The notes under the pieces were generated by a model. It was given only the letters and a program-made list of their open reading frames with translations, was not told where the DNA came from and did no database searches. Shown one piece after another: positions 46,124 through 54,600 of a DNA stretch of 59,294 bases (position 1 is the stretch's first letter; the number at the start of each line of letters is the position of its first letter). Source of the DNA: Agathobacter sp. (GTDB lineage: Bacteria > Bacillota > Clostridia > Lachnospirales > Lachnospiraceae); contig JAFLRQ010000001.1 in assembly GCA_022511395.1 (NCBI GenBank), positions 10,291 through 69,584 of the forward strand, written 5' to 3'. Position numbers and translations under genes: made by a program.

Positions 46124-46732
46124 TCAACCCCGCTTACCCACTGCATTTAACGCTTTTGTCCGCCTGTCCAGCTCACCCTTTTCATAGGGAACCAGCCCTT
46201 TTAACACCCTGTTTCTGATATGGGAAAAGGTCTGTCTCTCCCCCTTGACGGCGAGCATCGTGAGCAGATATACCAGAAGGGCCTCCGTGTCCTCGTGCAT
46301 GATATAATGGCCCCGGCCTTTCTCATAGTACTCGAGGGCACTTCGCGCCGTGTAGGCATCCTTCTGGTAATTCTTGGACGCGCTGACGCGGTCGATGAAC
46401 ATCTCCACCACATAGCGGACGGGCATTTTCATTCCGGTCATGCCCCCGTGTCCGTCCTTTTTTGCCGCATAGTCAATCCAGTACTCCAGATGATGGCGGT
46501 TCTTCCCCTTGTGGTGCAGCCACGCCTGCGAGTATCCCTTATCCTCCCGCTCCGCGTTGTTCGGGCTCATGTTTCCCCGGAAATATTTACATCCCACCAG
46601 AAATTCCACCGGGGAATACTTGGACCAGTCATGCATGATCCCCTGCCGGTAAAGCCCCACCCGGAAGCACCCTGCGCGCACCAGATTTTTATGCCTCACA
46701 ATCGTCTTTAAATGTTCCCATGCCTTTATCAT
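46124..46732 (-). CDS. DUF5662-type protein
   Basis: MIKAWEHLKTIVRHKNLVRAGCFRVGLYRQGIMHDWSKYSPVEF...WLHHKGKNRHHLEYWIDY. Confidence 0.8.
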   Translation of the reverse strand: MIKAWEHLKTIVRHKNLVRAGCFRVGLYRQGIMHDWSKYSPVEFLVGCKYFRGNMSPNNAEREDKGYSQAWLHHKGKNRHHLEYWIDYAAKKDGHGGMTGMKMPVRYVVEMFIDRVSASKNYQKDAYTARSALEYYEKGRGHYIMHEDTEALLVYLLTMLAVKGERQTFSHIRNRVLKGLVPYEKGELDRRTKALNAVGKRG

Positions 46733-48627
46733 TTCTTTCTTTTATGCCTCTTTTCCGTGCGCCGTGCCGGGCGGCACACATACACGCGCACCGACTGCGG
46801 AGACAGGCGTACCACATTCCCCTCCTGAAGAAGCTGTTCCTCATAATAAGGAGTGTCGGCAGCGCTGTCCATCACGAGATACCAGTCTTTCCCCGGCTCC
46901 GGCTTTGGAAGGGAAAGGTTCGACTCCGCCGCCAGAAAATTGTAAGCAACATACACATCCTCGCTCTTTGCGGCGTCCGGAGAGTAGGCCCCGGAATACA
47001 GCATGCCGATACAGAGCCTCCCCGCATCCGGCTCCGCAATCCACGCATTCTCCCCGTGAAACGACAGATCCGGTGACCCAAGCAGCCTGTGGTCGCTGAA
47101 GCGGAACGGCTCTTCACTCGCAATCACCGGGTGCATCCTGCGGAATTCCACAAGCTTTTGCAGAAAATGCAGCTCCTTCCGGTGCAGGGACTCGTTCTTC
47201 CAGTTCACCCAGCCAACCGGATTGTCCTGACAGTACGCATTGTTGTTCCCCTGCTGCGAGTTGCGGAATTCATCCCCCGCCCACAAAAGCGGCACTCCCT
47301 GCGCCAGAAAAAGCATCATCACGCCGCTTCTCCACTTGAGCCTGCGCAGTGCGTTGATATAGCGCAGGCGGGTCGGCCCCTCACAGCCGCAATTGTTGCT
47401 GAAATTCCAGTCGGGTCCGTCGCGGTTCTCCTCACCGTTTGCCTCGTTGTGCTTATCGTTGTACATGAACAGATCCGCCAGCGTAAAACCATTGTTGCCA
47501 GCCAGATAATTCACATAGCCCAAATGCTGCCCCTGCTTGCGCTGCTGATCCACAAACTCCTTCATATTGCCGTTGATATGGTTCAAAATCTTGCGCGCCG
47601 GGTACAGGTATTCATCCTTGTACAGAAACAGGTTCTTGCATCTCCTCACATCCTTCATGTCCGGCGAAAACCACTCGCAGAAAATTTTCGTGCGGCTCAA
47701 CAGATTGTCCTGCACAATCGCCGTCAGCGGAATGCTTCCGCCCAGCAGATGGAATCCGTCCACATGATACTCCCGGACCCAGTAGCGCAGGGCGTCCAAT
47801 ATCATATTATGGTTGCTGTCCTCCGGAAAATACATCTCCATCACACATTCCATGCCAAGCTCGTGCAGGCGGCGGATCAACGTCTTGTACTCTGCCGACG
47901 CGCGCTCCGGGTCCGCGGCATAGGAGGCCTTCACTGCAAAATAGTTGCCGTGCCCGTATCCCCAGTAATTTAACTGCCGCTTCTCCGCCACCGCGACTGC
48001 CGGGCGGATGATGTCCTGGCTCTTTGCCTTCCATGTCACATATTCCGGAATATGCGCAGGCTCCGTGATCTGCATCTCCTCAAACTCGTACACCGGCATC
48101 AGCTCGACGGTTGTGACCCCAAGGCGGCCCAGATAGCCGATCTTGTTCATCAATGCCCGGAAGGTTCCCGGATTCCGGACTCCGGTCTCCATCGTAAAGC
48201 CCCGCACATGGAGCTTGTATATAAACATTCCGCTTCCCATCAGCTCCGGCGCGCGGTCCCTCTTCCAGTCAAACGCCTCATCCGCAAACCCTGCATACAC
48301 CTCATACCCATCCTTCTTCCGGGCGCTGTCGTTCCAGACCTCGCGCCCGGTGATCCGGCGGGCATACGGATCCATTACCTTCTCACCGTTGATCTCAAAA
48401 TAATAGACATAATTCTTCACATCGAGTCCGCAGACCTCAATCGAGCACAGGGAACCAATGCAGAAGTCCTCCGGGACCTCAATGCGGACCTTCTCCCCGC
48501 TGCCCCGGGGAACCAGCACAACGGCGCACTGATCCTCCTTTTCCCTGCAGAAAGTAAAGATCACGCTGCCCGCAAGCTGCCTGACTCCCAGTTTCTCGTA
48601 ATTTCCTTCTCTTACGCATCTTTTCAT
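46729..48627 (-). CDS. GH13 (GlgX/isoamylase-like) protein with degenerate active site
   Basis: GlgX-like FTLADLFMYNDKHNEANGEENRDG; catalytic regions VDGFHLLGG and LAGNNGFTL deviate. Confidence 0.85.
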   Translation of the reverse strand: MKRCVREGNYEKLGVRQLAGSVIFTFCREKEDQCAVVLVPRGSGEKVRIEVPEDFCIGSLCSIEVCGLDVKNYVYYFEINGEKVMDPYARRITGREVWNDSARKKDGYEVYAGFADEAFDWKRDRAPELMGSGMFIYKLHVRGFTMETGVRNPGTFRALMNKIGYLGRLGVTTVELMPVYEFEEMQITEPAHIPEYVTWKAKSQDIIRPAVAVAEKRQLNYWGYGHGNYFAVKASYAADPERASAEYKTLIRRLHELGMECVMEMYFPEDSNHNMILDALRYWVREYHVDGFHLLGGSIPLTAIVQDNLLSRTKIFCEWFSPDMKDVRRCKNLFLYKDEYLYPARKILNHINGNMKEFVDQQRKQGQHLGYVNYLAGNNGFTLADLFMYNDKHNEANGEENRDGPDWNFSNNCGCEGPTRLRYINALRRLKWRSGVMMLFLAQGVPLLWAGDEFRNSQQGNNNAYCQDNPVGWVNWKNESLHRKELHFLQKLVEFRRMHPVIASEEPFRFSDHRLLGSPDLSFHGENAWIAEPDAGRLCIGMLYSGAYSPDAAKSEDVYVAYNFLAAESNLSLPKPEPGKDWYLVMDSAADTPYYEEQLLQEGNVVRLSPQSVRVYVCRPARRTEKRHKRKK

Positions 48628-48708
48628 ACACTACCGCCCATCCATGCTGCCAACCATTACAAAAAAATTATACACGCTTTCCACATCTTTGTATAGTTTT
48701 ATTTCCGT

Positions 48709-48737
48709 TTGACAACGGATAATTTATTTTCTATAAT
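48709..48737 (+). promoter_or_regulatory. Consensus sigma-A promoter for DUF1292 gene
   Basis: TTGACA (48709-48714), N17, TATAAT (48732-48737); AAAGGGGG SD before ATG 48764. Confidence 0.92.
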
Positions 48738-50957: not shown

Positions 50958-52163
50958 TCACTCCTGGCTCCGGTGGTCCACCTTTTTTCGGACAATCAGG
51001 GCGTTTGGCATATACCGGCCGCGGCCGGACTTACTGGAAGATTTCGTGATATAGCGTCCGTCGTACCACATAACTGCGGAGCTTCCCCCGTCTAAATTCA
51101 TTGCCTGATACACTCCGTACCGCAGGAGAATGTCTTTACACTCCGCGACCGTGCAGCCGACGCTGTAGCCGACCTGCCTGCCGTCGATGATGAGGAGCAG
51201 CATGCTTCCGTCCAGCCGCTGTCCGATGGAGGTCCTTGGCTGCAGCCCCATGCCGAAGGTGCCGTCCACAACGCTCTGTCCGTCCACAACCAGCGCCGGG
51301 AAGAACTCACAGCTCCACCGGTAGTCCGCCACGGAATTGGTCGGATAACTGCCAACATAAAATTTGTTGTCGTTCTTCATTCCGCAGAACTTCCAGTAGC
51401 CCTTGATATTGCGGTTGCCGTACTCCACCCCGTCGATAATCAGCGTCCCCTTGACCTGGCCTCCGCTCCCGTGGCCGCCGACATCCTTAAACCCGCTTGC
51501 ATTCACCACAAGGAGGGCGTTCTCCTGTTTTCCGAAGCTCTCCGCCTCCTGTCCCCATGAGCCGAGACTTTTCGACTTGACCATATCAATCTGGGCGGGA
51601 TCCTTCACAATCGCCAGCTTTCCCTGATAGGTGGAGCCGCTGACCTTCACGATCAGCATCCCGTTCTCAACATCAATCACAAGGATCGGATCCCCCTGCG
51701 CCGTCTTCAGGCCCAGCGTCTCCTCCATGTCCTCCAGAAAAATTTTGTCATAGCCGTCCCGCGTCAGCTCCGGATGCGCTGTAAAATAACTGCGCACAGA
51801 TTCGGAATCCAGCTCCGCGTATGTCTCATAGAAGATTGTGACCGGATCCTTTACAGGCTCACCCGTCTCGGTTTCTGAGTTGGTCTCCGTATCCCATGTG
51901 CTGGTCAGCCCCTGCTGTGCCTGCTGATTTGCCTCGAAATTCGCCATAACCTGATCGATAATGCCGCTTGGGAAAAACCAGGTCGCAAGCCACTGATGGC
52001 TGTTTGTTGTCATTGCAGTCTCAATATAGATCGTGCGCCATTTTTCGATGAAGGGAATGTGTGAAAAGGCGATGACCAGATAACACGCAATCATCACGCA
52101 CAGCACACTCCCCGCTATAATTAATCGCTTGAGCAGTTTTTCTCTTTTGTCCGTTGTCTTCAC
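50958..52163 (-). CDS. Phosphodiester glycosidase (NAGPA-like) membrane protein
   Basis: N-terminal TM; FFPALVVDGQSVVDGTFGMGLQPRTSIGQRLDGSMLLLIIDGRQVGYSVGCTVAECKDILLRYGVYQAMNLDGGSSAVMWYDGR; GTG start with SD preferred. Confidence 0.88.
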   Translation of the reverse strand: MKTTDKREKLLKRLIIAGSVLCVMIACYLVIAFSHIPFIEKWRTIYIETAMTTNSHQWLATWFFPSGIIDQVMANFEANQQAQQGLTSTWDTETNSETETGEPVKDPVTIFYETYAELDSESVRSYFTAHPELTRDGYDKIFLEDMEETLGLKTAQGDPILVIDVENGMLIVKVSGSTYQGKLAIVKDPAQIDMVKSKSLGSWGQEAESFGKQENALLVVNASGFKDVGGHGSGGQVKGTLIIDGVEYGNRNIKGYWKFCGMKNDNKFYVGSYPTNSVADYRWSCEFFPALVVDGQSVVDGTFGMGLQPRTSIGQRLDGSMLLLIIDGRQVGYSVGCTVAECKDILLRYGVYQAMNLDGGSSAVMWYDGRYITKSSSKSGRGRYMPNALIVRKKVDHRSQE

Positions 52164-52167
52164 AAGC

Positions 52168-53034
52168 TCACTTCTCCTTCTTATCAGCCTCCGCAAGATA
52201 CTCGATAATTTCGTGTGCTGCCACATTGCCCTCCCCCACGGCTTTCGCATACTGGTAGGGCCGCCCGGTACAGTCTCCCGCCGCGTAGCATCCCGGCAGG
52301 TTCGTCTCCTGCTTTCGGTTCACCACAATATGGCCGTTCTCCACGACAAGGTTTTTGAGCATAATCGCCGGAGCTATGGCGTTCCGCAGAAGAAACACTC
52401 CGTCCACCTCGCGCGACTCGCCGCTTTTTAACGTGACCTCGCATGCCTTCAGCTCACCCTTAATCTCTACCGGATAGTCCGTGCTGACATGCACATTCTC
52501 CCGCACAACACCGGGTTCGGGATAGGCCGGATAAAAATCCACAGATTCCGCAAGGTCCGCCAGAAACTCGACCTCGTGCTCAAATTTTGGGGCGTTGGCG
52601 TACACCGCAATCTTTTTTCCTTTATAGAAATTTCCGTCGCAGGTCGCGCAATAGCTCACGCCGCGGCCAAGAAACTCCTCCTCCCCGCGAAGCGGTGCCG
52701 CGTTCGCGGCCCCGACACAGAGTGCCACCGTCCTTGCCTCATAGACCTCGTTGTCCGCCAGCACCATATAATGGTCACCTGCCGGCATAATGTTTGTGAC
52801 CTGTTTTTCTGTGATCGCAATCTCCATCTGCTGCCGATGCGCGTCAAACGCCTCAAAGAGCCCGCGCCCCGTGATGCCCGGCAGGGCCGGATAATTGTCC
52901 ACATGCGGTGTTTTTTGCACCTTGTCACTCATCTGTCCGTTTCCGAACCACAAAAATTGCCGGTTGTGTATTTTTAAATTCAGGGCACACGAAAATCCGG
53001 CCGGACCGGTGCCCACAATAATACAGTCATACAT
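52168..53034 (-). CDS. Thioredoxin reductase-like FAD oxidoreductase lacking NADPH motif
   Basis: GTGPAGFSCALNL, SYCATCDGNFYKGK, YAAGDCTGRPYQYAKAVGEGNVAAHEI. Confidence 0.9.
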   Translation of the reverse strand: MYDCIIVGTGPAGFSCALNLKIHNRQFLWFGNGQMSDKVQKTPHVDNYPALPGITGRGLFEAFDAHRQQMEIAITEKQVTNIMPAGDHYMVLADNEVYEARTVALCVGAANAAPLRGEEEFLGRGVSYCATCDGNFYKGKKIAVYANAPKFEHEVEFLADLAESVDFYPAYPEPGVVRENVHVSTDYPVEIKGELKACEVTLKSGESREVDGVFLLRNAIAPAIMLKNLVVENGHIVVNRKQETNLPGCYAAGDCTGRPYQYAKAVGEGNVAAHEIIEYLAEADKKEK

Positions 53035-53181: not shown

Positions 53182-53210
53182 TTTTCAATTTTCATGCATC
53201 GTGGTATAAT
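53182..53210 (+). promoter_or_regulatory. Candidate promoter for GH5 gene
   Basis: TTTTCA, N17, TATAAT (53205-53210); AGGAG SD before ATG 53245. Confidence 0.6.
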
Positions 53211-53244
53211 TGCTGTAAAACACACCGCAAAGGAGAATTTCACT

Positions 53245-54600
53245 ATGCGATTCACCAAAAAAAACAAATTTTTACTGATTCTTTTATCCGTACTCCTCGG
53301 TTTGACTGCCTGCGGAACTCCCGCCGGAAAGGATGGCGACACAGAAATGATCCATGTAAATAACCCCCAAGCCCCGGACGATTCTCAGAATCCGGCAGGC
53401 TCCCAGACCTCGGACGATTCTCAGAATCCGACAGCCTCTCAGAACCCGGACAATTCCAATGAATCTTCCTCCGGGAATCAACCCGATCCGTCCGTACCGG
53501 AGCTTGCGGTCGGCGAGTTTGCGCTCCCGGAGAGTGAAGCCCTCGACTTTGTACACAATCTGACCCTCGGCTGGAATCTCGGCAACACCCTCGACGCCAT
53601 CGACTGTACCTGGCTGAACGACGAGATGGCCTACGAGTCCGCATGGAGCGGGCAGATGACGACAAAAGAACATATTACTGCCATCAAAAATGCGGGCTTT
53701 CGCTCTATCCGCATCCCGGTGTCGTGGCACAACCATATCTCGGATTCCGCCGACTACACCATCAGTCAACCGTGGCTCGACCGGGTCAATGAGATCGTCG
53801 ATTACTGTATCGATCAGGATATGTATGTGATCATCAACATTCATCACGACAACAGCAAGGAGTTTATGTACCCGACGAGTCAGGATCTCGACCGCTCCGT
53901 TCGGTATGTGACCGCCATCTGGAGGCAGGTCTCCGAGCGTTTCCGCGATTACGATGAGCATCTCATCTTCGAGTCGCTCAACGAGCCCCGGCTGGTGGGA
54001 CATCCAAACGAGTGGTGGATTGACCCGGATTCCGCCGACTGCAAGGACGCAATCCAGTGCATCAACCGGATGAATCAGGCGTTTGCAGACACCGTGCGCG
54101 CATCCGGCGGCAACAACAAGGCACGCTACCTCATGTGTCCGGGCTATGCCGCCTCCCCGGAAGGCGCATTGAACGACGGCTTTGTCCTCCCGAAGGACTC
54201 TGCCGGCAACAACCACCGCATCATTGTCTCCGCGCACGCCTACACGCCGTATAACTTTGCGCTCGAATACCCCGGCACCTCCAGCTGGTCCAGCGCCAAC
54301 AAAACCGATGTGAACAATATGCTCGGCTTTATGGACAATCTTTACAACAAGTTTACCAGTCAGGGAATTCCCGTGATCATCGGCGAGTTCGGCGCAAGGG
54401 AAAAGAACGGAAATCTCAGCGCGCGCGTGGACTTTGCCTCCTTCTATGTCGCGGCCGCAAGGGCCAGAGGCATGACCTGCTTCTGGTGGGACAACAACTG
54501 CTTTGAGGGAGACGGTGAGCGGTTCGGACTGTTCGACCGCGCCAGCGGACAAATCCGTTACCCGGAGATCAGCCGGGCCATGGTGAATTACGCGAAGTAG
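53245..54600 (+). CDS. GH5 cellulase-like lipoprotein
   Basis: Lipobox LTAC; LGWNLGNTLDAIDCTW; catalytic ESLNEP and IIGEFGA. Confidence 0.93.
   Translation: MRFTKKNKFLLILLSVLLGLTACGTPAGKDGDTEMIHVNNPQAPDDSQNPAGSQTSDDSQNPTASQNPDNSNESSSGNQPDPSVPELAVGEFALPESEALDFVHNLTLGWNLGNTLDAIDCTWLNDEMAYESAWSGQMTTKEHITAIKNAGFRSIRIPVSWHNHISDSADYTISQPWLDRVNEIVDYCIDQDMYVIINIHHDNSKEFMYPTSQDLDRSVRYVTAIWRQVSERFRDYDEHLIFESLNEPRLVGHPNEWWIDPDSADCKDAIQCINRMNQAFADTVRASGGNNKARYLMCPGYAASPEGALNDGFVLPKDSAGNNHRIIVSAHAYTPYNFALEYPGTSSWSSANKTDVNNMLGFMDNLYNKFTSQGIPVIIGEFGAREKNGNLSARVDFASFYVAAARARGMTCFWWDNNCFEGDGERFGLFDRASGQIRYPEISRAMVNYAK
53375..53430 (+). repeat. 36-bp-period direct repeat in GH5 linker
   Basis: CGGACGATTCTCAGAATCCG occurs twice, encoding DDSQNP units. 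Confidence 0.85.

Follow-up and report, generated by a model that had tools for sequence, protein, structure and literature searches.

Is a GlgX-like protein that lacks the catalytic residues of its family a decaying relic, or has it been kept for something other than cutting glycogen? The question is raised by an open reading frame at positions 46729-48627 (minus strand, stop codon included) of the window, the whole 59,294-nucleotide stretch of Agathobacter sp. DNA analysed here. Catalysis in GH13 requires an Asp/Glu/Asp triad, and the original prediction suggested that this 632-aa GlgX/isoamylase-like protein is a pseudoenzyme, conserved in a non-catalytic role.

Catalytic positions of the GlgX-like protein

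The frame starts with ATG and has zero internal stops. The GlgX equivalog model TIGR02100 matches its product with an E-value of 5.5e-84, its relatives in the PDB are ISA1, GlgX and TreX, and all of the motifs quoted in the prediction (MEMYFPED, VDGFHLLGG, KIFCEWF, LAGNNGFTL and YNDKHNEANGEENRDG) are present in it. Using E. coli GlgX D336/E371/D443 as the catalytic reference, the alignment places L295/E318/N379 at the three positions, so the GH13 triad is absent. Both aspartates that were claimed to be lost are indeed replaced: region II (EYHVDGFHLLGGSIP, 47728-47772; this and the following regions are on the minus strand) has Leu295 (47743-47745) in the nucleophile column of D336, and region IV (VNYLAGNNGFTLADL, 47470-47514) has Asn379 (47491-47493) in the stabiliser column of D443. 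Region I reads VMEMYFPEDSN (47812-47844) in place of the canonical D-V-V-x-N-H. Its Asp has become Glu264, as claimed, and the Asn and His are gone; this Asp is not among the three catalytic residues. The acid/base Glu was said to remain, which is true of the window protein (region III, RTKIFCEWFSPD, 47659-47694; Glu318, 47674-47676) and does not extend to the family, where Glu occupies this position in 25 of 112 relatives.

The protein resembles GlgX and TreX (TIGR02100) in its fold and in the diagnostic beta7/beta8 loops YNxKHNExNGExNxDG and GNNNxYCQDN. It differs in lacking the triad, in its score (282.5 bits against a curated cut-off of 640.9, which is not reached) and in its spacing. The beta3-beta4 segment is shortened, leaving 31 residues between region I and the nucleophile position of region II compared to a median of 75 in GlgX, and the nucleophile-to-acid segment has shrunk from 37 residues to 23. 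An Asp supplied from a shifted position is ruled out: VDGF fixes region II in the alignment and GFTL does so for region IV, so the motifs are secured on both sides, and no Asp replaces the nucleophile.

A single clade across Lachnospiraceae

All 25 orthologs recovered from genome contigs (44-69% identity) are intact and lack the nucleophile Asp; in every one of them region I carries Glu and region IV carries Asn (TN in one). The FHLLG/GNNGF substitutions are common to the orthologs found, and they recur in independent assemblies, Roseburia isolates included. We then aligned 112 family members with 42 canonical GlgX proteins, counting one outlier, L166, apart as a 113th member. Among the 112, region IV Asp occurs in 15, nucleophile Asp in none and all three catalytic residues together in none, compared to a full triad in 42/42 canonical GlgX. 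Overall, the nucleophile Asp is absent from 112 of 113 family members and from 0 of 42 canonical proteins. The exception, L166 (441-2297, minus strand), has Asp in the nucleophile column (HIDGFRID) and Arg, not Glu, at the acid position; its Asp may reflect either a reversal or a very old remnant.

In a tree from a quick search, in which E. coli GlgX and L166 form long branches, the pseudoenzymes occupy one side of a branch with an SH-aLRT support of 100, and their join with canonical GlgX of Lachnospirales has a support of 99. Because L166 is nested within the clade, parsimony requires two changes at the nucleophile, one loss and one reversal (L166), compared to seven changes at each of the other two catalytic positions. 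In close pairs, dN/dS (Nei-Gojobori) is 0.03-0.13 and not near 1, reading frames are intact throughout, and no frameshifts or stops were seen in close orthologs. The window protein thus belongs to one ancient clade of GH13_11-fold proteins under purifying selection in Lachnospiraceae; the clade's sister group comprises the canonical GlgX of that family and of related ones. The catalytic nucleophile was lost once, at the base of this clade, after which the remaining catalytic positions drifted unconstrained. The prediction of a conserved non-catalytic protein, not decay, is borne out by the shared substitutions, the low dN/dS and the single nucleophile loss. Since these residues have been lost or have drifted, the family should be unable to cleave glycosidic bonds by GH13 chemistry, and judging from the sequences we regard the loss of this activity as near certain.

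To map the distribution, a profile built from the orthologs was applied to 299 Lachnospiraceae genomes from 298 genera, with presence called at E ≤ 1e-90. Full-length members were found in most of them, and intact full-length orthologs occur in well over 100 genera. An earlier impression that the family is limited to Roseburia and Agathobacter arose because the first scan was restricted by its peptide patterns, and it is overturned by the family-wide matches. The pseudoenzyme is present in about 226 of the 299 genomes, a figure that is approximate as it includes some of 33 intermediate-scoring, GlgX-less genomes counted without sequence inspection (182 at 1e-120). Canonical GlgX is present in 99, making the pseudoenzyme, found in about three quarters of the genomes, more frequent than the working enzyme. 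Both proteins occur in 89 genomes, the pseudoenzyme alone in 137, GlgX alone in 10 and neither in 63. The 137 genomes were scored as GlgX-less by TIGR02100 with read-through scoring, and since the single-contig genomes G185, G271 and G282 are among them, the missing GlgX is not merely an assembly loss. Outside Lachnospiraceae, no members were found in about 250 genomes of the same order; matches there are canonical GlgX proteins of about 700 aa (E 1e-62 to 1e-84, compared to < 1e-107 for members). The glgA gene is present in 289 of the 299 genomes, and its association with the pseudoenzyme is weak (Fisher p ~0.02), with genome size and genome incompleteness acting as confounders.

Candidates for a substitute debranching enzyme were sought in 20 GlgX-less genomes. 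Type I pullulanase exceeds its cut-off in 5 of the 20 and so is not a universal substitute. Nearly all 20 contain frames resembling a GH13 protein of about 700 aa (L173, 5018-7087, minus strand; also L174 and L176). That protein is neopullulanase/maltodextrin-glucosidase-like and was set aside. Two further records deserve mention. One genome appears to contain two family members (G256:C158 and G256:C91; frames of 642 and 721 aa). A record titled Muribaculaceae, of Bacteroidota (L006), holds a Lachnospiraceae locus that is 94% identical to L005 with an identical gene order, and is probably a misbinned or mislabelled MAG.

Conserved loops and neighbouring genes

In its predicted fold the protein resembles GlgX, ISA1 and TreX along almost the whole length (E 1e-40, TM 0.75). 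An Isoamylase_C domain scores over its cut-off, and together with the fold match this gives the (beta/alpha)8 barrel and C-terminal isoamylase domain that characterise GH13_11. No Pfam match to CBM48 was obtained in 26 members; residues 1-120 are modelled with high confidence as a beta-rich domain. Relative to canonical GlgX, column conservation drops across regions I-IV, from 0.88 to 0.43 in region I and from 0.80 to 0.26 in region III, the least conserved stretch of the family. Conservation is instead highest in two loops whose topology is taken from the model. The beta7 loop (residues 384-417; YNDKHNEANGEENRDG...NFSNNCGCEG, 47377-47478, minus strand) averages 0.64 compared to a family mean of 0.40, and the beta8 loop (residues 444-475; LLWAGDEFRNSQQGNNNAYCQDNPVGW, 47203-47298, minus strand) is the best-conserved window at 0.65-0.70. 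About half of the 57 positions common to the family and GlgX lie in these loops. The model puts them on the substrate face, after strands beta7 and beta8, with low pLDDT there because the alignment is shallow. We infer that they form a candidate glucan-binding rim, at which ligand recognition may have outlasted catalysis, although their conservation could instead serve folding or contact with a partner.

No glycogen genes adjoin the pseudoenzyme gene in the loci compared, where the neighbours are housekeeping genes, DUF5662 or ABC-F. Within the Roseburia/Agathobacter branch the order is GltX, PcrA-like, DUF1292 (divergent), pseudoenzyme, DUF5662, SigK-like sigma factor, ComM, DprA and TopA; in a second branch an ABC-F gene precedes the pseudoenzyme. 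The DUF5662 (PF18907) gene of the window (46124-46732, minus strand, 202 aa) overlaps the pseudoenzyme stop codon (ATGA) and is a probable co-transcribed partner. In 33 of 45 loci the gene immediately downstream, on the same strand, is DUF5662, which either overlaps the pseudoenzyme gene or is separated from it by a few to tens of nucleotides. Across the family, it is within 1 kb in 38 of the 86 genomes for which the places of both genes are listed. It is related to phage family phrog_20637 and has the invariant residues H7, H14, H34-D35, S37-K38-Y39, H73-H74 and H80-H81. Its all-helical model found no fold match in the PDB, so the fold gives no guide to its function. A suspected link to defence systems proved to be just an incidental match to a GlgB model.

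Upstream, promoter-like sites face in divergent directions. TATACA-17-TATAAT (48667-48695, minus strand; a consensus match only) lies 40 nt from the pseudoenzyme ATG, and TTGACA-17-TATAAT (48709-48737, plus strand), a perfect consensus overlapping a possible stem-loop, precedes the DUF1292 gene. Elsewhere in the window are a putative lipoprotein endoglucanase, GH5-like by eye (53194-54600, plus strand; LTACG lipobox, then GFRSIRIPVSWHNH), and a protein with an NAGPA-type phosphodiester glycosidase domain and an N-terminal membrane helix (50958-52250, minus strand).

Possible functions of the pseudoenzyme

The protein has lost its triad and yet its relatives are intact in about three quarters of Lachnospiraceae genomes, exceeding the working enzyme, and therefore it probably binds glycogen and governs how it is handled, and does not cut it. 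Considering together how the loops are conserved, the context of the pathway and the precedent of ISA2, we favour a pseudoenzyme that binds alpha-glucan and acts as a non-catalytic regulator or scaffold of glycogen handling, a reading we give moderate confidence. Since the substrate-face loops are kept, the beta7/beta8 face may still hold branched alpha-glucan. The pseudoenzyme would then occupy or present branch points or, alternatively, tether other enzymes of glycogen turnover, with the co-directional DUF5662 protein as the best candidate partner. The glycogen binding or sensing suggested in the original prediction is a plausible role that agrees with how conservation is distributed.

Non-catalytic paralogues have precedents. 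GlgD is the non-catalytic partner of GlgC in Bacillota, and is thus a comparable case in the same pathway and phylum, although with an unrelated fold and at a different step. For plant ISA2, an isoamylase without catalytic activity, effects on the structure of glucan have been documented (PMC12510319, PMC3787081). It is likewise a long-kept isoamylase-fold paralogue (GH13_11) in which the nucleophile and most catalytic residues are replaced (PMC12510319), and the defining loss of the nucleophile and other catalytic residues is seen in our protein too (definition in PMC12510319). However, the pseudoenzyme is of independent origin, being sister to Lachnospirales GlgX, and it usually occurs without a catalytic partner. 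Streptomyces GlgX, among the best fold matches, is catalytic; its allosteric activation by c-di-GMP (7U39-7U3D, PMC9530166) makes clear that regulation can act on GlgX proteins, and E. coli GlgX and TreX are reported not to share its c-di-GMP residues (PMC9530166).

Taking ISA2 more literally, the protein could be an obligate partner that regulates or stabilises canonical GlgX in a heteromer. Among working systems the ISA1-ISA2 complex of plants comes nearest, and the best fold matches include its structures. Of the 99 GlgX-bearing genomes, 89 also have the pseudoenzyme, and the window's own genome encodes a canonical GlgX in which every motif is present (G000:C87). We nevertheless find this distinctly improbable. 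The pseudoenzyme profile gives 283 bits for GlgX and 271 bits for ISA1 against a far lower 127 bits for ISA2, the extra N-terminal beta-sandwich domain of ISA2 (PMC12510319) has no counterpart in the 632-aa protein, and 137 of 226 pseudoenzyme genomes, single-contig ones included, show no match to canonical GlgX. With so many such genomes, the pseudoenzyme is probably not an obligate GlgX subunit. Somewhat less improbable, though still unlikely, is a non-glycogen function common to the pseudoenzyme and DUF5662, such as partner binding or signalling with the old barrel as a scaffold. The recurrent adjacency of the two genes and the lack of adjoining glycogen genes fit this proposal, but conservation in the protein peaks in the glucan-facing loops, and DUF5662, which 246 of 299 Lachnospiraceae genomes contain, also occurs where the pseudoenzyme does not.

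A catalyst with new chemistry or a new substrate could draw on the family-specific residues K233, E399, D512 and E264, positions that are 78-100% conserved in the family, with other residues there in most Lachnospirales GlgX. At the -1 subsite none of the four takes the place of the missing nucleophile or acid, and region III, the expected seat of a general acid, is where conservation is poorest; we judge this very unlikely. Finally, while loss of catalytic residues is by itself compatible with a decaying gene copy, full-length orthologs across so many genera and their dN/dS rule out a pseudogene, and identical substitutions in independent assemblies argue against a sequencing or alignment artefact, leaving decay or artefact a negligible prospect. 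A non-catalytic glycogen regulator or scaffold remains our preferred interpretation.

We found no description of a bacterial GlgX pseudoenzyme in the open-licence literature, subscription papers being outside our scope. Similarity searches count such proteins as GlgX. A review of glycogen genes in gut commensals used BLASTP at ≥20% identity and listed two glgX homologues in Blautia obeum (PMC10395257), one of which may be a pseudoenzyme. Because pseudoenzymes would pass this threshold, the debranching capacity of Lachnospiraceae has probably been overstated, raising the questions of what their real debranching enzyme is and why the dead copy is retained more often than the live one. In plants, what ISA2 does without catalysis is still under debate, and the family offers a bacterial counterpart to it that can be approached by genetics. 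In the broadest reading, to which we give about even chances, one duplication and one nucleophile loss produced a family-wide, non-enzymatic glycogen-binding protein that outlived its parent enzyme in many genera. It would be an ISA2 counterpart that acts without the catalytic sister and, in dominant gut bacteria, controls glycogen structure or turnover, perhaps together with DUF5662.
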